From Persephonella sp. (lineage in GTDB: Bacteria > Aquificota > Aquificia > Aquificales > Hydrogenothermaceae): a stretch of DNA of 38,491 nucleotides. Numbering within the stretch: the first letter of the stretch is position 1; every line of letters begins with the position of its first letter. Shown piece after piece: positions 5,686 to 16,016 of this stretch. The stretch is taken from assembly GCA_030949555.1 (NCBI GenBank), contig JAUZSJ010000034.1, forward strand, positions 1-38,491, written 5' to 3'. A program made the position numbers and the translations under genes. The notes under the pieces were generated by a model, which saw only the letters and a list, made by a program, of their open reading frames with translations, was not told the DNA's origin and searched no databases.

Positions 5686-6462
5686 TCAGGATTTTTTGTA
5701 TTTTTCCGGGAGTTCCTGTGGCATTTTACCTAAATATTCAACCTCCTCTTCCTCGTCTAATCTTTTGGAAAATGGCTTCTCCATTGTAAGTTCTTCATAA
5801 ACATGGGCTACGAGACCTGCTGTTCTGCCGATAATAAAAAATCCTTTACCAAGCTTCCAGTCAAACCCCATCTCTGAAACAACAGCAGCTATAGCCCCGT
5901 CAACATTCATAACAAGCCTTTTCCCTTTTACTTTTTCTATTGCCTTTTCTACTTCTTCAGAGAACTGACAGTAATTACCGTAAAATCCCAGTCTTTTTGC
6001 CACATCCATTATCTTTTTTGAGCGGGGGTCGTACTCTCTGTAGTATCTGTGTCCATATCCAGGAATCCTTTTTCCCAGTTTTAGATACTCTGAAACTATC
6101 CTTTCAGGGTTTTCCTGACAGTTTTCCTGCACAAATCTCATTGCCCCTTCAAGGGCTCCTCCATGGGCTTCACCAAAGGCAAGAATTCCTGCCCCTACTG
6201 CCACATGCAGGGAATTTCCACCGCTTGCAACAGCCCTTGCTGCAATAACTGAAGGTGGGGCAATAGAATGCTCAACAGTTGCAACAAATATGGCGTCAAG
6301 CATCTGTCTCTCTTTTTCTGAAGGAAGCTCCCCTTTTAAAACAAGGTATATCGCTTCTGTAAATGTTAGATTTCCCACAAGGTCTGACAGTTTATAACCT
6401 CTTACATACGCCTCACGGTCAAAATGCCAGCTTATAGCTGTTCTCCACTTTTTCTTTTCCAT
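5686..6462 (-). CDS. ccl: Citryl-CoA lyase-type protein (citrate synthase superfamily)
   Basis: An intact 258-residue protein of the citrate synthase fold. It retains the catalytic residues: His in GEAHGGALEGAM, His in PGYGHRYY and Asp in MNVDGAIAAV. It is much shorter than citrate synthases (~370-430 residues) and has the size of the citryl-CoA lyase of Hydrogenobacter, which cleaves citryl-CoA to acetyl-CoA and oxaloacetate in the reductive TCA cycle. It also resembles the C-terminal domain of ATP-citrate lyase. No citryl-CoA synthetase is in the window. The gene is divergent from the permease gene with 56 bases between them. A short side-function citrate synthase is the alternative; confidence is good for the fold and moderate for the exact reaction. 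Confidence 0.72.
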   Translation of the reverse strand: MEKKKWRTAISWHFDREAYVRGYKLSDLVGNLTFTEAIYLVLKGELPSEKERQMLDAIFVATVEHSIAPPSVIAARAVASGGNSLHVAVGAGILAFGEAHGGALEGAMRFVQENCQENPERIVSEYLKLGKRIPGYGHRYYREYDPRSKKIMDVAKRLGFYGNYCQFSEEVEKAIEKVKGKRLVMNVDGAIAAVVSEMGFDWKLGKGFFIIGRTAGLVAHVYEELTMEKPFSKRLDEEEEVEYLGKMPQELPEKYKKS

Positions 6463-6518
6463 AACACCTATGCCCTGTGATATTATTTAACATAATATAG
6501 TATAAACAAAGAGGAGAG

Positions 6519-7506
6519 ATGTTTTTATATATAATCAGAAGGCTTTTTCAGATGGTTCCACTTGTCATCGGAATTACATTTATATCATTTCTTATCATAC
6601 AGCTTGCTCCGGGAGATTATTTAGACAAACTGAAAATGAATCCACAGATATCAAAGGAAACATTAGAGGAGCTGAGGAAAGCTTATGGGTTAGACAAACC
6701 ATTACTTATTCAGTACTTTTTGTGGCTACTGAATGCACTGAAATTTGACCTTGGCTATTCATTTAGCTATCACGTTCCTGTATTGGAACTTATAAAAGAA
6801 AGGGTAGGAAACACCCTGTTTTTATCTGTAACATCAGGTATTCTGGCGTGGCTTTTGGCCGTTCCCCTTGGTATATGGGCTGCACTCAATCCAAACAGAT
6901 GGGTTGATAAATTTATACAGCTGTTCTCTTTTACATTTATGTCAATCCCAAACTTTTTCCTTGCTTTTTTGCTTCTGTTTTTTGCAGTAAAAACAGGCTT
7001 ATTCCCAACAGGAGGTGCTACATCCCCTGATTACGAACAGCTTAGTTTTACAGGAAAAATTTTAGACAGACTGTGGCATGTTTCTCTTCCAGCTTTTGTC
7101 CTTGCTATAGGTTCACTGGCAGGTCTGGTCAGACTGGTAAGAAGTGCTATGATTGAGTCTCTCCAGTCAGAATATGTTCTTTTTGCAAAGGCTAAGGGAC
7201 TGCCTGAAAAACAGGTTATATACAGACATGCCTTAAGGAATGCCCTGAATCCCTTTATCACTCTTCTGGGTTTTGAAATTGCAAGTTTGCTGTCTGGTGC
7301 TGCCCTTATTGAGATTATTGTTAACTGGCCGGGAATGGGAATGCTTATGCTTGATGCTGTTCTGTCTCAGGACCTGTATCTGGTGATGGGTGGACTGTAT
7401 ATAGGAGCCATTATGTTGATTATTGGCAATCTGATTGCTGACCTGCTACTTGGTAAAACTTGACCCAAGGGTCAGGCAGAGGGAGGTTGAAGGAGTATTA
7501 AGATAG
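6519..7506 (+). CDS. ABC transporter permease, OppB/DppB type
   Basis: Inner-membrane permease for peptides, nickel or similar solutes. It has six predicted membrane helices. The N-terminus (FLYIIRRLFQMVPLVIGITF) and the cytoplasmic coupling loop (AKAKGLPEKQVIYRHALRNAL) are diagnostic of the BPD_transp_1 family, and the last segment LDPRVR is the usual end of the protein. That end lies in another frame after an indel near 7452, extending the gene to the TAG at 7504-7506. A ribosome site GAGGAGAG precedes ATG 6519. It pairs with the OppC-type gene at 7915, but the usual solute-binding protein and ATPases are not adjacent, so the partners must be encoded elsewhere. Confidence 0.9.
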
Positions 7507-9126: not shown

Positions 9127-9141
9127 TGGCACATCTTTTGC
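9127..9141 (+). promoter_or_regulatory. Sigma-54 promoter (-24/-12)
   Basis: TGGCAC, 5 bases, then TTGC: an exact match to the sigma-54 consensus, with exactly ten bases between the invariant GG and GC. Transcription would start near 9153, just before the ribosome site AGGAGAGG and the ATG at 9165. A GTG at 9126 would place the promoter inside the coding region, so it is rejected as the gene start. This is the only such match I noticed in an intergenic position. Confidence 0.82.
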
Positions 9142-9164
9142 TACTTAAAAAAAGCAGGAGAGGA

Positions 9165-9371
9165 ATGATGAAGAAAAAGATATTCAGCCTGCTTTTTGGA
9201 ACTGTGATATTAGCCTCAGTAAACAATATAAAAATATCTGAAGTTAAAGACAGGGAGTTAGAGGAGGTTTATGGGGGATTTTATCGGACAAAAATAGAAA
9301 CAGGGAAAAACCAGAAGATAATACTGTGGGATGAGAAAAAGATTTTACAGCTCAATAACAAAAACCGTTAA
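9165..9371 (+). CDS. Small secreted protein with double-glycine-like motif, first gene of amyloid operon
   Basis: A 68-residue protein beginning MMKKKIFSLLFGTVIL, a short signal-peptide-like N-terminus. About residues 24-35 read VKDRELEEVYGGF, strikingly like the leader of double-glycine peptides (D-x-E-L-x-x-V-x-G-G). The remaining ~33 residues are basic and polar (YRTKIETGKNQK..., ending LNNKNR). I do not recognise a family. It follows the sigma-54 promoter directly and is separated by 14 bases from the large repeat protein, whose N-terminus carries the related motif DDALEEVSGQG. It could be a minor amyloid subunit, a nucleator or a regulator of export; the sequence does not decide. Confidence 0.7.
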   Translation: MMKKKIFSLLFGTVILASVNNIKISEVKDRELEEVYGGFYRTKIETGKNQKIILWDEKKILQLNNKNR

Positions 9372-9385
9372 AGGAGGTACAAGTC

Positions 9386-11986
9386 ATGAGACACAGAAAG
9401 AGAAATCTACTGGCAGCTGCACTTGCTTGCAGTGGCAGTATCAACACCATCTATTGCACAGCCTCAGGCAGTTTCCGACGACGCATTAGAAGAGGTATCA
9501 GGACAGGGACTGCAGGTAATTGAAAACCACAATGGAACATTCAGTGGGCACGGTCCCCTTAACTCACAGAACAACAATCTTGATTCTGTCCAGATGAATG
9601 ACAATGCTATGGTTTCTTCATCAACACAATACGGAGGAGTTTTTGCAAACTCTGCAGTGAACACAACAGCAAACTACCTTTACGATGCTGTTTCACCACC
9701 ACCTCCACCACCTCCAGATAGAAACAAAGTGTACAGCAACTCTTTCACTCAGAAAAATATTGCAACTGCAGAAAACCACAGAAACAGTGCTGACAATGCA
9801 GGAGAGGAAGAATACATTGCAATTGCTGTTAATCTGAACAAGGAAACACAGCTCGTCAATACAGAACCTGATGAGGGATACCAGGTTGTAGGTTGTTGAG
9901 CAGGACAACAACAACAACTCTGTTCAGCTGAACGAAGATGCAATGAAAGCATCAAGAGGTATACTCCACACTAATGCTGCAGCTTCCGCTGTAAACTCCG
10001 GTGAAAACTACTTTGTTGCTGCAGGTGTGGAAAACACAGAAGGTAGTCAGCTAAATAAACAGGTAGCGTCAAACTTTGATAACTATGCAGAGGCTGAGGG
10101 AGATGGCTCTGTTGCAGGAACAGGAAATGTTGAGTTGAGTGAAGGAACACAGGTAATTAATAACGGTGGAACTGTTCTTGCCCATCAGGACGCGAACAAC
10201 AACAATGTTATTATCATTAACCAGGATAATAACAATAACTCTGTCCAGTTAAATAACAGTGCTCAGGAATATGCTGCATTCATGACATTGAAAAATACTG
10301 CAAAATCTGCAGCAAACAACGGCATTAATGTTACACATGTGACAGGTGATGTTGTTGATTCATCACTCAGCCAGAAAAATAGACAGATAGCAAGCAACCA
10401 CAACAACACATCAGAAGGTCCTGCAGATTACTCTGTCGCTATTAACCTGAACAAGGAAAGACAGGTGATAGACAATGGCCATTATTACGGAAGCAAAAAT
10501 GCCGATGATCCGAAAGCTCAGATTATGAACCAGGACAACAACAACAACTCTGTTCAGCTGAACGATTCAGCTCAGGCACAGGCTAGAGCATTCATCATGG
10601 AAAATGCATCAACATCTGCAACAAATACAGGAGTGAATCTTGCCCATATAGGTGGAAACAGCTCTAACTCTTCTGTATTACAGGAAAACAAGCAGACATC
10701 ACAGAACTTCAACAACACAGCCAGAGGAAATCTGTTAGCTGCTGCTGGAAATGTAGAATGGGAGCAACACAGGATATTAACAACTACTGGACAGAGATTA
10801 ATTACCAGAATAACAACAACAACTCTGTTCAGCTGAACGATTCAGCTCAGGTTGAAGCTGCAGGCATTATAATTGAGAATGTAGCAAACTCTGCATCAAA
10901 CACAGGGTTTAACCTCCTTGGTGGAGGAGATGTGGGAGATATAGAAACATACTCTGGAGACTTCTCAAATGCACTGTCCCAGACCAATAATCAGACAGCA
11001 GAAAACCACACAAACTATGCAAAAACGTATAACGGAGAGGAAGATGTTGCTATTGCAGGTAATCTGAATAAACAGACACAGGTTATAAGAAACTACACAA
11101 CAGACAATCCTGCAGACCTGATATATATATATGACCAGGACAACAATAACAACTCTGTTCAGATAAATGGTGTTGCTCAGGGGCTGCAAGGGGAGTCGTG
11201 ATATCAAACCTTTCTCTCTCTGCTGTTAATACAGGACTGAACATGATGAATGCAGGAAATATAGGGGGAAGTGAGATTTATCAAGGCAACAGTCAATCTG
11301 CTTCTAACTTTAAGAATACAGCAGATGGAACAGTTGCAATTGCCGGCTAATGCTGAGCTGACAGGTAGCTATTTCTATAAAACTGAGAGATGGAAGTAGG
11401 TCAGGTTATAGAAAATATTCATGCAGTAATACCAGAGGATAGAGAGCAGAACAACAACAACAACTCTGTCCAGTTGAATGATGCAGCTCAGATTGAAGCT
11501 GCAGGCATTATAATTGAGAATGTAGCAAACTCTGCGGTGAATACAGGAATAAATCTGATGGATACAGGGGATATAACAGACTCTACAGTTGAACAGAGAA
11601 ACGATCAGACAGCAGAAAACCACACAAACTATGCAGATGCTACAGACTTTGCCCTTGCAACAAACATAAACAAACAGAAGCAGTATATATACAACTGTAA
11701 CTGCAGTTCCATTGAAGGAGAGCAGAACAACAACATGAATTCTGTTCAGATAAATGACGGTGCTCAGGGAAGCATAGATTCTATTGTTCTCGTAAACGCT
11801 GCTGCATCAGCTGCAAATGTTGGTATAAACATGCTGAAAGCTGGAACTATTTCTGGCTCATCTGTAACACAAGTTAATACAGCAACAGCTGTAAACTTCT
11901 CTAACACAGCTTCTGGAAATACTGCCGTGGCTGGAAATGGGGAACTTTCTGGATTCTTTATGCCCGGTCCCATAATAGGTCCGTAA
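9386..11986 (+). CDS. Large secreted Asn/Gln-rich repeat protein, FapC-like amyloid subunit (frame broken by indels)
   Basis: After correcting indels near 9420, 9893, 10760, 11185, 11348 and 11395, a single ~865-residue protein emerges. ATG 9386 follows an excellent ribosome site (AAAGGAGGT). A signal peptide ends near PSIAQPQA and is followed by the leader-like VSDDALEEVSGQG. Then come eight ~90-110-residue repeats, each starting Q-x-NNNN-SVQLND-x-AQ and continuing with a helix-breaking AxSAxNTGxN segment and a Q-x-N-x-Q-TAxN core. Asn, Gln, Ser, Ala and Gly dominate; charged residues are few. A proline run lies near 9700. The only cysteines are a CNC near residue 770, recalling the CxxC of Pseudomonas FapC. 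Composition, repeat logic and the C39 peptidase/OMP neighbours point to a functional amyloid fibre subunit exported to the cell surface. It is homologous by pattern only; an adhesin with a beta-solenoid is the alternative. Confidence 0.75.
9567..11986 (+). repeat. Eight tandem ~300-bp coding repeats of alternating A and B type
   Basis: Repeat units begin near 9567, 9898, 10219, 10528, 10803, 11133, 11444 and 11720 (spacings 331, 321, 309, 275, 330, 311, 276, then 267 to the end). Units 1, 3, 5 and 7 end with an ENHxNxA...AxNLNKxTQVI type of sequence. Units 2, 4, 6 and 8 end with an NFxNTAxG...AxAGNxELS type. Units 5 and 7 share a 43-base identical block (in 10853-10895 and 11493-11535), evidence of recent duplication of an A-B pair. 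Confidence 0.8.
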
Positions 11987-11993
11987 ACACACT

Positions 11994-12010
11994 GGGGGGT
12001 GTTTCCCCCC
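11994..12010 (+). terminator. G6/C6 hairpin between amyloid subunit gene and downstream genes
   Basis: Six G, a 5-base loop (TGTTT) and six C lie 8 bases after the stop of the repeat protein, followed by TTAAAT. In a 37-40% GC context this is a very stable stem without a long U tract. It is best read as an attenuator or a 3' stabilising/processing hairpin that would let the fibre subunit be made in excess of the downstream export proteins. It ends just before the ribosome site (AAGGAG, about 12018) of the next gene. Confidence 0.55.
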
Positions 12011-12029
12011 TTAAATAAAGGAGAAAAAA

Positions 12030-12359
12030 ATGAGAAAAATAATAACAGCTGTTCTTTTAGCAGGGGTTCTGACAGCAGGAGCAAAGGAGAAAGATTTCAC
12101 TGTTTCCTTTGGAGATGGGGGATTAAAAAAATACAGCGTCGTAGATAACACATGTTTCAGCTACATAATGGGATATCCAAAAACAGACAGGACAGTTCCA
12201 AACATCATGAATGAAGCAGTTCTCTCTTCACTTGCTAAGGCGAGAAAAAATTTCAGCAGAGATTACGACGGTTTTATAAATGTGAAGGTTTTTACCCAGT
12301 TTATAGACAAAAGAATGATTATTTATCAAATCTGTGGTGATTTGATTAGGAGGAAGTAG
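12030..12359 (+). CDS. Small secreted protein of unknown family in the amyloid operon
   Basis: A 109-residue protein with a clear signal peptide (MRKIITAVLLAGVLTAGA). The mature part is ~90 residues: a beta-rich start (KDFTVSFGDGG), two cysteines (NTCFSYIMG near 48 and QICGDLI near 103) that could form a disulphide, a central helix (NEAVLSSLAKARKNF) and a closing strand pair (GFINVKVFTQF...IYQICGDLI). The pattern of helix plus paired strands recalls YbjQ-like or short outer-membrane biogenesis proteins, but I do not recognise it. It has a good ribosome site and is followed after 2 bases by the next secreted protein, so it is cotranscribed with the C39 peptidase. An accessory or chaperone role is inferred from position only. 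Confidence 0.65.
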   Translation: MRKIITAVLLAGVLTAGAKEKDFTVSFGDGGLKKYSVVDNTCFSYIMGYPKTDRTVPNIMNEAVLSSLAKARKNFSRDYDGFINVKVFTQFIDKRMIIYQICGDLIRRK

Positions 12360-12361
12360 CC

Positions 12362-12769
12362 ATGAGAAGGCTTATAGGTGCAGTTCTGTGTTCTGGAATT
12401 ATCTTAAGCGGGGCTTTTGGAGGGAACATTACTCAGGTTTCAGACAGTGAGCTTGATACTGTTTATGCCCAGGGATTTAATTTTGATATAAATGTGGACC
12501 ATATGAAATCCTTCCGTATTGGAGAAAATATCTACAATGTAGATATTGGCGACATAACAATAAATGATGGTGGTATGCAGTTTAATCTAAGCAGCAGTCT
12601 TATGCTGTCTGGTAATGCCCAGTCAAACGCATTTATGCCTATAAACATTGTTGATTCAGCAGTAAACATTCCAATAAACATTGTGGTAATAATGGGAGAT
12701 AACAATGGAAGTATTAATATATCTAATCTCCTCAGCAGTATTAATAAGTCTAACTTTATTGGACAGTAA
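12362..12769 (+). CDS. Small secreted protein with leader-like motif, putative minor fibre subunit
   Basis: A 135-residue protein: signal peptide MRRLIGAVLCSGIILSGAFG, then VSDSELDTVYAQGF, the third copy of the D-x-E-L-x-x-V-x-[GA]-[GQ] motif in this operon, then ~95 residues of Asn-, Ile- and Ser-rich sequence with alternating hydrophobic residues (INVDHMKSF, NVDIGDITINDGG, VNIPINIVVIMGD). Such beta-prone, low-charge sequence suits a minor amyloid subunit or nucleator, comparable in position to FapB/FapE. AGGAGG in the preceding gene end supplies the ribosome site. No cysteine remains in the mature part. The function is inferred from neighbours and composition. Confidence 0.7.
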   Translation: MRRLIGAVLCSGIILSGAFGGNITQVSDSELDTVYAQGFNFDINVDHMKSFRIGENIYNVDIGDITINDGGMQFNLSSSLMLSGNAQSNAFMPINIVDSAVNIPINIVVIMGDNNGSINISNLLSSINKSNFIGQ

Positions 12770-12795
12770 GATTCCTTCTATGGAGGCCCCTGTTC

Positions 12796-13521
12796 ATGGT
12801 TGAGGGAAAATATTTTAAGTTTATTTTAATCATTATTTTCTTTCACTTTATCCCTTTCCTTTCCCTCAGCCATGTTTTTTCACAGGAGAGAAAGGCAGAG
12901 ATTCCCTTAATGGTAGGGAGCAGTTTTGGAAAGGTTTATATAAGACCGAAAGTTGTTCCTTACAGTGAGATAAAGATGAAAAATGTTGTGAAACAGAAGT
13001 TAGATTACAGCTGTGGCTCTGCAGTTGTTGCCACCCTATTCAAGTACTATTTAGGATTAAATGTAACAGAGGAAAGTGTTATAAACGGCCTGTTCAGAGT
13101 GGGAAATGTGAAAAAGATAATAGAGAGAAAAGGTTTTTCTCTCCTTGATATAAAAAAGTTAGCTGTTGCCCTTGGTTATAAGGCAGCAGGTTACAGAACA
13201 GATGTAAATGGACTGGTAAAGATAGGCAAGCCTGCAATTGTTTCCATAACAGTCGGCAGTTACAAACATTTTGTTATATTCAAAGGTGTAAAAAAAGGCA
13301 GAGTTTTCTTAGCAGACCCATCTGTAGGAAATACAGTTATGTCTGTAGGCGAGTTTGAAAAAGTGTGGTACAGAAATATAGCTCTCGTTATATACCCAAA
13401 AGATGAGAAGGGTATATTTGGCATATCAGACGAGGAGCTTAACTATGTAAGTTCCGACTTTGTCAGACAGTCCCTATACAGAAACGGTATTCCCGGATAC
13501 AAGACATTCAGTGATTTTTAA
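12796..13521 (+). CDS. Secreted C39-family cysteine peptidase, FapD-like
   Basis: A 241-residue protein with an N-terminal membrane/signal segment (residues ~7-28) and one C39 peptidase domain (~60-210). The catalytic set is complete: Q67 (oxyanion), C73 in LDYSCGSAVVAT, H158 in YKHFVIFKG and D174 in LADPSVGNT. Unlike bacteriocin transporters it has no ABC or membrane domain, so it acts alone in the periplasm. The phrase pattern (V-V-KQ-x-x-DYSCG-x-A) matches peptidases found with Fap amyloid and Fil-type fibre operons of Proteobacteria. Likely substrates are the neighbours with double-glycine-like motifs. The ribosome site GGAGG precedes ATG 12796. C39 assignment is firm; the FapD role is inferred. 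Confidence 0.87.
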   Translation: MVEGKYFKFILIIIFFHFIPFLSLSHVFSQERKAEIPLMVGSSFGKVYIRPKVVPYSEIKMKNVVKQKLDYSCGSAVVATLFKYYLGLNVTEESVINGLFRVGNVKKIIERKGFSLLDIKKLAVALGYKAAGYRTDVNGLVKIGKPAIVSITVGSYKHFVIFKGVKKGRVFLADPSVGNTVMSVGEFEKVWYRNIALVIYPKDEKGIFGISDEELNYVSSDFVRQSLYRNGIPGYKTFSDF

Positions 13522-13555
13522 TATATATTTACTAAAAAATAAAAGAGGGCCAGTT

Positions 13556-14589
13556 ATGAGAGGAAAACTTCTTTTTTTTATTGTCATTTCTTCTATATTA
13601 TTCCATTCCTACGCATCAGAAATAGAAAAGCAAAAGAAATACTCAAAAAAGGAAAAACAGAAAAGTATGAGGAGAGTCTTACACAGTTTGACAGGGGATA
13701 CATACTGCTCAAAGGAGGGCAGTTTGAGATTGAAAACAGCTTTTCATACATTTACTATTCTGCAAACCAGATATACCTGAGCAGTTTTGCCATTTTAGAC
13801 CCTATATTCCTCACCCTTGGCGAGTTTGGAATTGAGAATGCAAGGAGACATATATTCCAGTACAATCTGGCACTGAGGTATGGAATAGCAGACTTCTTAC
13901 AGGCTGAGGTTAATATTCCTTTTATTTTCAGACATGAAAGATACTCTGTTGTGGGAACAAATGCAGGAGAGAGAACTGCAGATGACTACGGGTTTGGAGA
14001 TGTATCTGTAGGTATATCTATCCAGCCTATCAAAGAAAGAAAAAGCAGACCTGCTGTTATACTGTCTCTTGCACTTAAGACAAAAACAGGAAAAAGTCCT
14101 TTTGATGTTGACGACCCTAAGAGAGACCTTCCAACAGGAAGTGGTTATTATGCCGTAAAAGGTGGGATAAACCTGCTTAAGAGCATTGATCCTGTTGTTA
14201 TATTTGGGGGAATCGCTTATTCCTACAACATGCCTGAAGATGTAGGGAAGGTTTATACGCTGAACACCGGAGGAGGAACCACATCTGCTAAGCTGGATAA
14301 GTTCTATCCAGGGGACACACTGAGTTTTAACATTGGGTTTGCTTATGCTCTTTCCTACAACTTCTCAATGAACTTCCAGTTTGCTCAGGATTACACATTC
14401 ACATCAAAAAGTAAAGTTAACGGTGTAAAATCAGATGTAAACAACTCTACAATGAACTCTGCAACACTGAAGATTGGAACAGGATGGGCACTGTCAAAGA
14501 GGTCTTCACTCAATGTTTCGGTTTCCATGGGACTGACCAACGATGCACCTGATTACGTTATTGAGTTCAGACTGCCGGTCAGATTTTAA
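13556..14589 (+). CDS. Outer-membrane beta-barrel, FapF-like exporter (one frame shift)
   Basis: The corrected product has ~345 residues. A signal peptide (LLFFIVISSILFHSYAS) is followed by a short charged helix (EIEKAKEILKKGKTEKYEES), then alternating amphipathic strands through to a C-terminal Phe (IEFRLPVRF), the usual end of a barrel recognised by BAM. The block LLKGGQFEIENSFSYIYYS, followed by LALRYGIADFLQAEVNIPF and FRHERY, matches the transporter-type porins encoded beside C39 peptidases. FapF forms such a barrel with a helical plug, and the N-terminal helix here may serve likewise. The frame shift lies near 13630. ATG 13556 follows AGAGGG. It ends convergent with the sigma-54 regulator, stop codons overlapping. 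It is the probable pore for fibre secretion. Confidence 0.78.
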
Positions 14590-16016
14590 TCTGACACCTC
14601 TCCCATACGATGTTTCTCTATAAGTGTGTAGACCTTTGGCCTGCTTATTCCAAGTAGTTTTGCCATCTTTGTTATATTTCCACCTGTTTTTATAAATGCC
14701 CTTCTCACAAGCTCCCTTTCAACCTTTTCAATATTTTCTTTCAGATTAAGGGAATGGCCATTGAGACAGTATGCTGTATCCACATCCTCCCTTCTAAGAT
14801 TCAGCTCTTTTTCTGATATGTAGATATTTTCTGTCAAAACAACAGCCTTCCTTATGACATTTATAAGTTCCCTTACATTCCCCGGCCATGGGTAATTCAG
14901 GAGAGATTCTTCAGCTTCTGGAGTAAACCCCTTTATATCCTTTCCTGTTTCCCTTGCATACCTGTTCAGAAAATATTTTGCAAGAACCAGTATATCTTCC
15001 TTTCTTTCCCTCAAGGGGAGGAATGTTTATGGTCAGCACATTCAACCTGTAAAACAGGTCTTCTCTGAACCTTCCTTTTTTAACAGCCTCTTCAAGATTT
15101 ACATTTGTTGCCGCAATTATCCTGACATTTGCATGAAGGGTCTCGTTCCCCCCAACCCTTGTAAATGTAAAATCTTCAAGAAATCTCAGAAGCTTAGCCT
15201 GCATGCTAAGGGGCATGTCTCCAATCTCATCAAGGAACAGCGTTCCCCCATTGGCAAACTCAATTCTCCCTATCTTTCTCCTGTGGGCATCTGTAAATGC
15301 CCCTTTTCATAACCAAACAGCTCCGATTCTAACAGATTTTCTGGTATGGCTGCACAGTTCACCACAACGAATGGTTTACCGGCCCTTTTGCTCCTCTCAT
15401 GTATCGCCCTTGCTGTTAACTCCTTCCCTGTTCCTGTTTCTCCTATTATCAGAACTGGATAATCATTTGTTGCATACTTTCTTATAAGGTTAAAAACATT
15501 TTTTATACCTTTACTTATACCAATAAATTCCTCTTTTTCCTCTAACTTTTCCTCTATCTCTTCAGGATGCTCAACAAGCAGGTCATAGAATATCTTTCCA
15601 ACCTTAAATTCCTGTATAAATCTGACAATTTCAGGTTTTGTGTAGTCAAAAAACATCCCACACCTTCTGCAGTATTTCTCCCTGTTCTCAATCTTTTTTA
15701 AACAGAAAGGGCACATTCCGCTTTTGTAAATTCTTGAAGAGAGATATTTCCCTACTGTTGAAGCTATCAGCTCAGGGTCTTCATTAAAGGTGATAACAAA
15801 TTCATCCTCCCTAAACCTTGTTATTTTTCCCCTTAACGATACTTCTTCGTCTAACTCTATAAAAACAACAACATCTTCATGGTCACAGACAGAAAGGGCT
15901 TTATCCTTTACTTTCAGACCAAGGAGTGAGAGATTAACTCCTCTGACTGTAAAAATCTCCCTGTGACAGTCAATAAAAACATTATCTTCGTATCTTATTC
16001 TTGCAGATAGACGCAT
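14586..16016 (-). CDS. Sigma-54 activator with PilZ and zinc-ribbon input domains (frame broken by indels)
   Basis: About 476 residues. Residues 1-98 form a PilZ domain: R2-x3-R6 and N28-x-S30-x2-G33 fit the c-di-GMP motif. Residues 100-122 form a zinc ribbon with C102, C105, C116 and C119. Residues ~150-390 are the AAA+ sigma-54 domain: Walker A GETGTGKE at 172-179, FGYEKGAFTDA (GAFTGA variant with Asp), LFLDEIGDM, and [18 protein letters not shown]. The C-terminus is a Fis-type helix-turn-helix ([23 protein letters not shown]). No receiver domain is present. Frame changes lie near 15300 and 15020. Its position beside a sigma-54-driven amyloid operon makes it the likely direct regulator, sensing c-di-GMP. 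It probably shares a transcript with the DUF445 gene upstream. Confidence 0.85.

Follow-up and report, generated by a model that had tools for sequence, protein, structure and literature searches.

A C39 peptidase and barrel operon with a giant repeat protein in Persephonella, and its relation to the Fap and Fil systems

The described systems that come closest to the locus studied here are Fap, the functional amyloid of Pseudomonas (fapABCDEF), Fil, a putative pilus system known from Acinetobacter and its relatives, and curli (CsgA/B/G). The locus lies in a genome bin of a Persephonella sp. (assembly GCA_030949555.1, contig JAUZSJ010000034.1, positions 1 to 38,491; this whole stretch of 38,491 nucleotides is called the window) and holds a free C39 peptidase, an outer-membrane barrel and a giant Asn/Gln-rich repeat protein. 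In excerpts of Dueholm 2013 (PMC3792158), Fap is known only from Beta-, Gamma- and Deltaproteobacteria, FapD and FapF belong to larger families, FapA is often missing from accepted Fap operons, and FapC homologues average 377 +/- 143 amino acids, some of them with 4-16 repeats. According to an excerpt of Rouse 2018 (PMC6173800), co-located fapD/fapF homologues occur in five additional phyla. Aquificota may be among these five, and the FapD/FapF gene pair itself, already reported in 2018, is not new. Passages of a 2025 review (PMC12822426) count 1602 fap clusters in GTDB v226, more than 90% of them canonical, in Pseudomonadota, Desulfobacterota, Nitrospirota and Bacillota among others, and call three repeats in FapB and FapC almost universal; 'aquific' is absent from its main text. 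These reports weaken the novelty outside Proteobacteria that a preliminary description of the window, made from its sequence, had claimed. Literature searches that combined amyloid and Fap terms with Aquificae, thermophiles, Persephonella or ILWDE gave, judged by the listing, no paper on this locus, and the text of PMC5026340 holds no fap terms.

We find the export operon to be real and conserved, and to form a separate branch within the C39-barrel family. We consider it rather likely that the operon is dedicated to the export of a giant surface-fibre protein, with a secretion core homologous to those of Fap and Fil, and that it forms a separate lineage of Aquificota and a few Campylobacterota. 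This reading is based on gene content, the homology of peptidase and barrel, conserved gene order, the regularity of the repeats, a conserved promoter and a predicted all-beta fold. The cargo is probably a surface fibre, and, judging from the predicted fold, amyloid formation by the subunit is a good guess. The locus should not be classed as Fap, but in outline it probably works like it. What is new here is that the small ILWDE leader peptide is shared with some proteobacterial fap operons and is accompanied there too by a sigma-54 promoter and activator; this shared peptide is the most useful by-product of the analysis. If the fibre reading is true, an early-branching thermophilic phylum would supply heat-tolerant fibres, which would serve both as a material and as a test of the evolution of amyloid secretion.

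The source lies within a Persephonella-type genus of Aquificota, and its bin (1.43 Mb in 71 contigs, the window being contig 34) is 55% complete. The preliminary description had the parts and their order right: the forward strand carries a sigma-54 site, a leader peptide, the repeat protein, two small secreted proteins, the C39 peptidase and the barrel, in this order and each at its place. The gene of the repeat protein, the presumed fibre subunit (9386-11986, forward strand), is frameshifted in the window. In the relative G009 (locus L015), whose peptidase is 95% identical to that of the window, it is a single open frame of 862 amino acids. A comparison with G009 along 12.9 kb shows 15 single-base indels within genes: the subunit has 6, and the other 9 hit other genes. 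Since the indels are also spread over other genes, the breaks in the subunit are likely assembly errors; with intact genes in the relatives as well, we rejected a pseudogene or a programmed frameshift.

The operon could work as follows. A sigma-54 activator with a PilZ-like domain would sense cyclic-di-GMP and turn the operon on, and all products would, judging from their signal-like N-termini, reach the periplasm via Sec. The periplasmic C39 peptidase would there trim or recognise the leaders of the L-x-x-V-x-[GA]-x type that are seen in the ILWDE peptide, the subunit and the second small protein (the LDTVYAQG protein). The first small protein, predicted to have a DUF74 fold, is guessed to be a periplasmic accessory or chaperone. 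The unfolded subunit would cross the barrel, as its homology to FapF suggests, and fold outside as a predicted beta-solenoid with Asn/Gln ladders, each repeat of about 100 residues making up at least one layer. The folded subunits would finally stack into an amyloid-like fibre, for which the LDTVYAQG protein may be the nucleator.

As in Fap, a C39 peptidase stands beside a FapF-type barrel and a secreted protein has imperfect Asn/Gln-rich repeats; some Fap operons (L130, L131) likewise combine the ILWDE leader peptide with a promoter and an activator of the sigma-54 type. Unlike in Fap, the peptidase and barrel are on a separate branch, FapB, FapC and FapE are unrecognisable, the subunit carries a leader motif, a DUF74-fold protein is added, and the barrel leaves positions 1-117 of the FapF model unmatched. 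Further, large subunits of the window type have 5-13 long repeats against three short ones (37-39 residues) in FapB and FapC, the number that is near-universal according to the 2025 review (PMC12822426, in the passage cited above). Fil resembles the locus in that FilB is the best curated match of the peptidase, in its place in the trees (a weakly supported sister in that of the peptidase, the same branch in that of the barrel) and in substrates seen with a comparable S/T-G-Q-x-G motif near the N-terminus. However, the scores are far below the Fil cut-offs, and the substrates in L146 and L147 are without NNNxSVQ repeats; by eye, none of the open reading frames (ORFs) around four Fil-type peptidases resembles the subunit.

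Curli shares the predicted beta-solenoid of Asn/Gln-rich repeats, and CsgA heads the structural matches, but the window has a FapF-type barrel and a C39 peptidase, and no CsgG-domain protein was seen in the operon. CsgG-domain proteins are found elsewhere in the source genome (G000:C20, G000:C49) and in four relatives tested. Finally, the glycine-rich C39-barrel loci (L048-L112, Proteobacteria and Nitrospira), a large family whose peptidases group as the sister of canonical Fap, have the same peptidase-barrel pair and proteins with double-glycine leaders, including the ILWDE peptide in L139 and L140. They differ in their substrates, which are Gly-rich repeat proteins in L048, L051, L053 and L083.

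Peptidase, barrel and their distribution

The peptidase (12796-13521, forward strand), free and presumably periplasmic, matches Pfam Peptidase_C39 with 74.2 bits. Q67, C73, H158 and D174, which we take to be its catalytic residues, are invariant in all 11 rows of the alignment, the window included. Among the NCBIfam models FilB scores 168.8 bits and FapD 116.4 bits (E-value 1.1e-33), and ATP-binding cassette (ABC) bacteriocin exporters reach 48.7 bits at most. The gene adjoins that of the outer-membrane beta-barrel (13556-14589, forward strand, one frameshift near the start). Here FapF is the best curated model with 167.8 bits, FilC gives 138.2 bits, and the solved FapF structure entry in PDB is matched with an E-value of 4.2e-34. 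FapF is a trimeric barrel of 12 strands with a coiled coil and linker in the periplasm. Its model aligns only from position 118 of 420, so that the coiled-coil/linker region is unmatched; the N-terminal helix noted earlier for the barrel is present but short.

All these scores are far below the curated cut-offs (FapD 330, FilB 475 and FilC 630 bits). The FapD cut-off alone is not decisive: across 229 genomes sampled from one class, even the strongest of the 24 places found stays below it, with 284 bits. In the same sample FilB matches at E <= 1e-50 occur in 4 genomes, none above the cut-off. To judge from their sequences, the peptidase and barrel are homologous to the export kit of Fap.

The preliminary description was correct in its C39 peptidase with catalytic residues, in relating the export parts to Fap and in proposing that a thermophile has such a system, complete with a peptidase and a porin; a bacteriocin exporter, which it had named as a match that would undo the Fap relation, fits far less well than FilB. 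Of the families it had proposed to compare, FapF scores best with the barrel, and FilB scores higher than FapD with the peptidase. That the locus is simply Fap is not supported, given this preference for FilB, trees that place it outside canonical Fap, and FapB, FapC and FapE models that miss the remaining proteins.

The peptidase tree (60 rows) has five groups. Canonical Fap (10 rows, support 100/99) is sister to the glycine-rich group (20 rows), jointly with 99/96. The Aquificota and Campylobacterota form a group of 21 rows (93/88) whose union with Fil (4 rows) is weak, at only 81/45, and a small three-gene type makes up the last 5 rows. A clade of canonical Fap with the Aquificota/Campylobacterota peptidases, picked for the approximately unbiased (AU) test after the first tree had been viewed, is rejected with a p-AU of 0.0086. 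One row, L110, was first labelled glycine-rich and then reassigned to canonical Fap on its placement in the first tree. In the barrel tree (55 rows) canonical Fap (96/92) is apart from Aquificota/Campylobacterota plus Fil (100/100); Fil is nested inside the Aquificota/Campylobacterota rows, on long branches for which the program gave long-branch warnings. The canonical Fap rows come from one gammaproteobacterial class, and the reference Pseudomonas FapD/F and Acinetobacter FilB/C are not included by name. These trees place peptidase and barrel outside canonical Fap and nearest to Fil, with relatives in Campylobacterota.

Species genomes were scanned for relatives of the peptidase; 542 were confirmed, and we analysed the loci of the best 80, several of which are on contigs that end within the locus. 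The first 15 are from Aquificota (12) and Campylobacterota (3), while the remainder, from Proteobacteria, Nitrospira and others, are 34-45% identical. A barrel accompanies the peptidase in 79 of these 80. Matches to the Aquificota subunit model occur in 12 of the 80, with none among the 65 outside Aquificota and Campylobacterota; the models of the small proteins find the DUF74-fold type (110 residues) in 8 and the LDTVYAQG type (135 residues) in 12.

Among 61 relatives, 20 have a peptidase match, which is of the window type (E <= 2e-66) in 11. The subunit model matches 12 of the 61, namely all 11 with the window-type peptidase plus G031, where only a distant peptidase is found. In the whole phylum Aquificota the window-type peptidase occurs in 23 of 136 genomes, each time with at least 277 bits, and in the class of one Campylobacterota genome in 3 of 397. 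Two of the three Campylobacterota genomes (G425, locus L155, and G626, locus L156) have subunits, a small repeat-like protein, a protein of the 110-residue type, peptidase and barrel. In G015 three large subunit frames stand in tandem. A protein on contig 37 of the source (G000:C37:7451-7831, L031) was considered as a paralogous system and rejected, since this short C39-like protein is of another kind and its gene neighbours differ.

Leader peptide, promoter and activator

The ILWDE peptide (9165-9371, forward strand) has 68-69 residues, a signal-like N-terminus, the leader ELEEVYGG and the conserved motif KIILWDE; its profile matches positions 9165-9368 in the source genome with an E-value of 1.2e-22. 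Among 10,649 ORFs of the fetched loci, the pattern [IVL][IVL]LWD[ED] picks out 24 short ORFs at about 20 distinct places, in Aquificota, in the proteobacterial fap operons L130, L131 and L110, and in the glycine-rich loci L139 and L140. This search is biased, as all loci were preselected by their peptidase, and a genome-wide search is the fairer test. In 229 gammaproteobacterial genomes a profile of 15 peptides gives five matches at E <= 4.3e-6, each at most 3 kb from a FapD-type gene, and the next only at E 0.02. Four of the five had supplied rows of the profile; the fifth, in G220 (VTLWDERG), is independent.

In the 61 relatives nine matches were found at E <= 2e-7: eight lie within the operon, and the ninth, that of G015, is some 107 kb away from it. 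Weaker matches (E 4e-4 to 0.08) occur in G029, G025, G031, G016, G055, G039 and G014, and at second places in G059 and G060. The idea that the peptide is universal in canonical fap was rejected: it is found in 3 of 9 loci (L130, L131, L134), and a whole-genome search gave none in the other six genomes.

C39 peptidases cut after leaders of the double-glycine type. Leaders of the form L-x-x-[VI]-x-[GA]-x are seen in the ILWDE peptide (ending YGG), the subunit (SGQG) and the LDTVYAQG protein (YAQG). At a comparable place canonical FapE has MRGR, LRGR or IRGK in all six loci that were judged out of nine (L130, L131, L132, L135, L137, L138). In an excerpt of Rouse 2017 (PMC5557850), the active cysteine of FapD is required for FapC secretion and the target of FapD is called unclear; a passage of the 2025 review (PMC12822426) has FapD now thought to process FapE and FapF. 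Leader motifs on several proteins, together with a small peptide that recurs across lineages, make the question of the FapD target directly testable. By its sequence the ILWDE peptide is a candidate substrate of FapD-type peptidases. We suggest, tentatively and with considerable doubt, that within a separate C39-barrel lineage exporting amyloid fibres of a giant beta-solenoid subunit the peptide, so far overlooked and shared with fap along with the sigma-54/cyclic-di-GMP switch, would be a common FapD-type substrate and would, as a checkpoint or signal, link the expression of the system to export.

The sigma-54 (-24/-12) promoter TGGCAC-N5-TTGC lies at 9127-9141 on the forward strand and is the sole exact match in the window. 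Taken alone it is weak, because a search that tolerates one mismatch finds 3 matches in the window where chance would give 1.7; it is conservation that lends the site weight. TGGCA[CT]-N5-TTGC is found at most 70 bases upstream of 14 of 22 start sites, against a background of 0.016 per 300 nucleotides: 11 of 13 in Aquificota, 0 of 1 in Campylobacterota and 3 of 8 in proteobacterial canonical Fap. In these counts L023 and L041 refer to a single place, and loci of close relatives are not independent of each other. No site was seen 5' of the start used in L036, L037 and L040. The canonical loci with a site (L130, L131 and L134) are the three that carry the ILWDE peptide.

Convergent to the operon, on the reverse strand at 14586-16016, lies a frameshifted gene for a sigma-54 activator (AAA+, Fis-type helix-turn-helix) with a PilZ-like N-terminal domain. 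In L024 this domain scores 30.6 against a Pfam cut-off of 22.5. RxxxR and [DN]xSxxG, the motifs that bind cyclic-di-GMP, are present in all 10 activators inspected. The sigma-54 activators of L130, L131 and L132 have a VpsR domain. RpoN was found in 4 of 5 genomes tested, the exception being the 55%-complete source bin.

A few observations on the peptide may be added. In G015 it (L150:5754-5975) adjoins a PilZ-type sigma-54 activator (5976-7427), and both are about 107 kb from the three-subunit operon. In G005 (L016:4570-4750) the peptide gene has an in-frame stop, and the rest of the operon is open. VVLWDE ORFs with no visible leader lie by glycine-rich C39-barrel loci of Nitrospira (L057, L096, L098, L103) and may be due to chance.

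The repeat subunit and what it may build

In the subunit of G009 a profile detects 8 repeats, spaced 92-107 residues apart. The whole family has 152 repeats in 22 proteins, 2-13 per protein with the maximum of 13 in L021; large subunits have 5-13, each with a conserved core of about 66 residues. Over these 152 repeats the columns Q1, N3, N4, S7, V8, Q9, Q15, N25, A27, S29, N32, N36, Q50, N52, Q54 and N58 are conserved at 89-100%, and the ten Asn and Gln columns Q1, N3, N4, N25, N32, N36, Q50, N52, Q54 and N58 at 92-100%. Nine subunits have an Asn content of 16-18% and a Gln content of 6-10% (together 22-26%), and charges are few. Close to the C-terminus there is a CxC motif. The subunit had been described as three to four times longer than FapC; it is longer, but with 862 residues against the published mean of 377 +/- 143 that factor is on the high side. 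Searches of Pfam, NCBIfam and PDB sequences with the subunit gave no match of note.

Both small proteins, at 12030-12359 and 12362-12769 on the forward strand, have signal-like N-termini. The first (109 residues, two conserved cysteines) has a predicted model with a mean predicted local distance difference test (pLDDT) of 85.3, which resembles the DUF74/YbjQ fold of 3qkb (Foldseek E 1.7e-5; Z 9.9 over 86 residues), with RcsF at Z 6.6. By eye, no protein of this type is among the ORFs of the canonical loci inspected. The second, of 135 residues, has the leader LDTVYAQG and one stretch that resembles the front half of a subunit repeat, which makes it a candidate nucleator or minor subunit; the subunit model detects a protein of this type in the relative L033 with an E-value of 2.1e-7.

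The 856-residue subunit of L033 was modelled with AlphaFold2 from 9 alignment rows, with a pLDDT of 71.1 and a predicted TM-score of 0.74. Apart from the signal-like helix and one three-residue helical turn the model is all beta, and the subunit is likely to be a beta-solenoid if the model holds. In a second aligner curli CsgA (8c50) heads the matches, with Z 16.3 and a root-mean-square deviation of 8.3 over 192 residues.

Several results weigh against the fibre-export reading. Fibres and amyloid are here predictions from the genes and a modelled fold. Unrelated solenoids also reach Z 6-13 against the L033 model, so the match to CsgA could reflect only a common architecture. Among 350,542 chains Foldseek ranks FapC (9u4u), a Greek-key solenoid, first, but the E-value is 2.1 and the probability 0.01; FapC is absent from the VIA-align 2 rows, and neither result was used for or against. 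NCBIfam FapB, FapC and FapE give nothing at E <= 10 for the subunit and both small proteins. These models can reach proteobacterial operons like the control L130, which has the full set of fap genes, because they recognise it, below their cut-offs (FapC 180.6 of 195, FapB 100.8 of 190, FapE 113.9 of 250). A hidden Markov model (HMM) of 61 FapB/C repeats matches 0 of 9 subunits at E <= 100, real sequences being listed to that value and shuffled ones to E <= 1000, which makes the depths unequal. In G018 the subunit frames (1109 and 1845 residues) are about 125 kb away from the peptidase. Finally, the PilZ scores of L015 (17.4) and of the window's fragment (19.5) are under the Pfam cut-off.

The solenoid matches bear on one alternative: the cargo of the same kit could be a non-amyloid beta-solenoid, either monomeric or anchored to the cell, that serves as an adhesin or matrix protein, comparable to Fil, a putative pilus system. 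We regard this as unlikely, though worth keeping in mind. The generic solenoids among the structural matches agree with it, as do a peptidase and barrel nearest Fil, Fil substrates in L146 and L147 that are unlike FapC, and repeats that are longer than those of Fap and have a second conserved half, Q50-x-N52-x-Q54. The highly regular Asn/Gln columns, the high Asn and Gln content and the few charges fit a polymer better, however, and tandem copies of the subunit together with a small single-repeat-like protein better fit a polymer with its nucleator.

A comparison of the repeats bears on a second alternative, a true Fap operon that has diverged past sequence recognition, with FapA lost and FapB and FapC enlarged. 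FapB/C and subunit repeats share the spacing A-x10-N-x-A-x4-N-x3-N, so that the most conserved residues are equally spaced in both (N-x6-N-x3-N, with Ala at -11 and +2). Profile alignment with hhalign gives E 0.0018 over 27 gapless columns, in the same register as the alignment by eye. The controls, which also count against the fibre reading, come close: the reversed profile scores 15.25 against 15.82 for the real one, a score that 4 of 200 shuffles reach with composition correction on. With the correction off the reversed profile gives 29.7 against 35.1, and 9 of 200 shuffles reach the real score (1 of 60 in an earlier, smaller set). Homology of the subunit repeats to those of FapC is, on these alignments, suggestive only. 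In favour of the same alternative, the barrel is best against FapF, the CxC near the subunit C-terminus recalls the CxxC that an excerpt of Rouse 2018 (PMC6173800) gives for FapC, and L036 and L037 have a two-repeat protein of 206 residues ahead of a larger subunit, like FapB before FapC. Still, we find it quite improbable, given the rejected joint clade (with its group named after the first tree), the FapB, FapC and FapE models that find nothing, and canonical Fap as sister to another C39-barrel family.

That the locus is a bacteriocin or peptide-pheromone system, with the double-glycine peptide as its product and the large protein unrelated, is very improbable, since there is no ABC transporter gene among the operon's ORFs, the peptidase is free and barely resembles ABC exporters, and subunit and peptidase co-occur. 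In its favour are a double-glycine leader beside a C39 peptidase, weak sub-threshold lantibiotic-leader matches (E 0.065 and 0.21) and the distant peptide and regulator of G015.

The fibre-export reading is the one we prefer, and some neighbouring genes were noted beside it. One counted in its favour is a gene with a GGDEF (diguanylate cyclase) domain at L034:9692-10579, between peptidase and barrel, in a genome with its subunits about 125 kb away. Four loci of Hydrogenothermaceae type (L025, L028, L029, L030) hold a small cassette of an LSDRELKKTKG-like protein, a short barrel-like protein and a C39 peptidase, which forms the outgroup in the peptidase tree. In three loci of Aquificaceae type (L023, L024, L158) the gene after the operon encodes a large membrane protein that by eye resembles a glycosyltransferase of the cellulose-synthase type, which would fit a role in the biofilm matrix.

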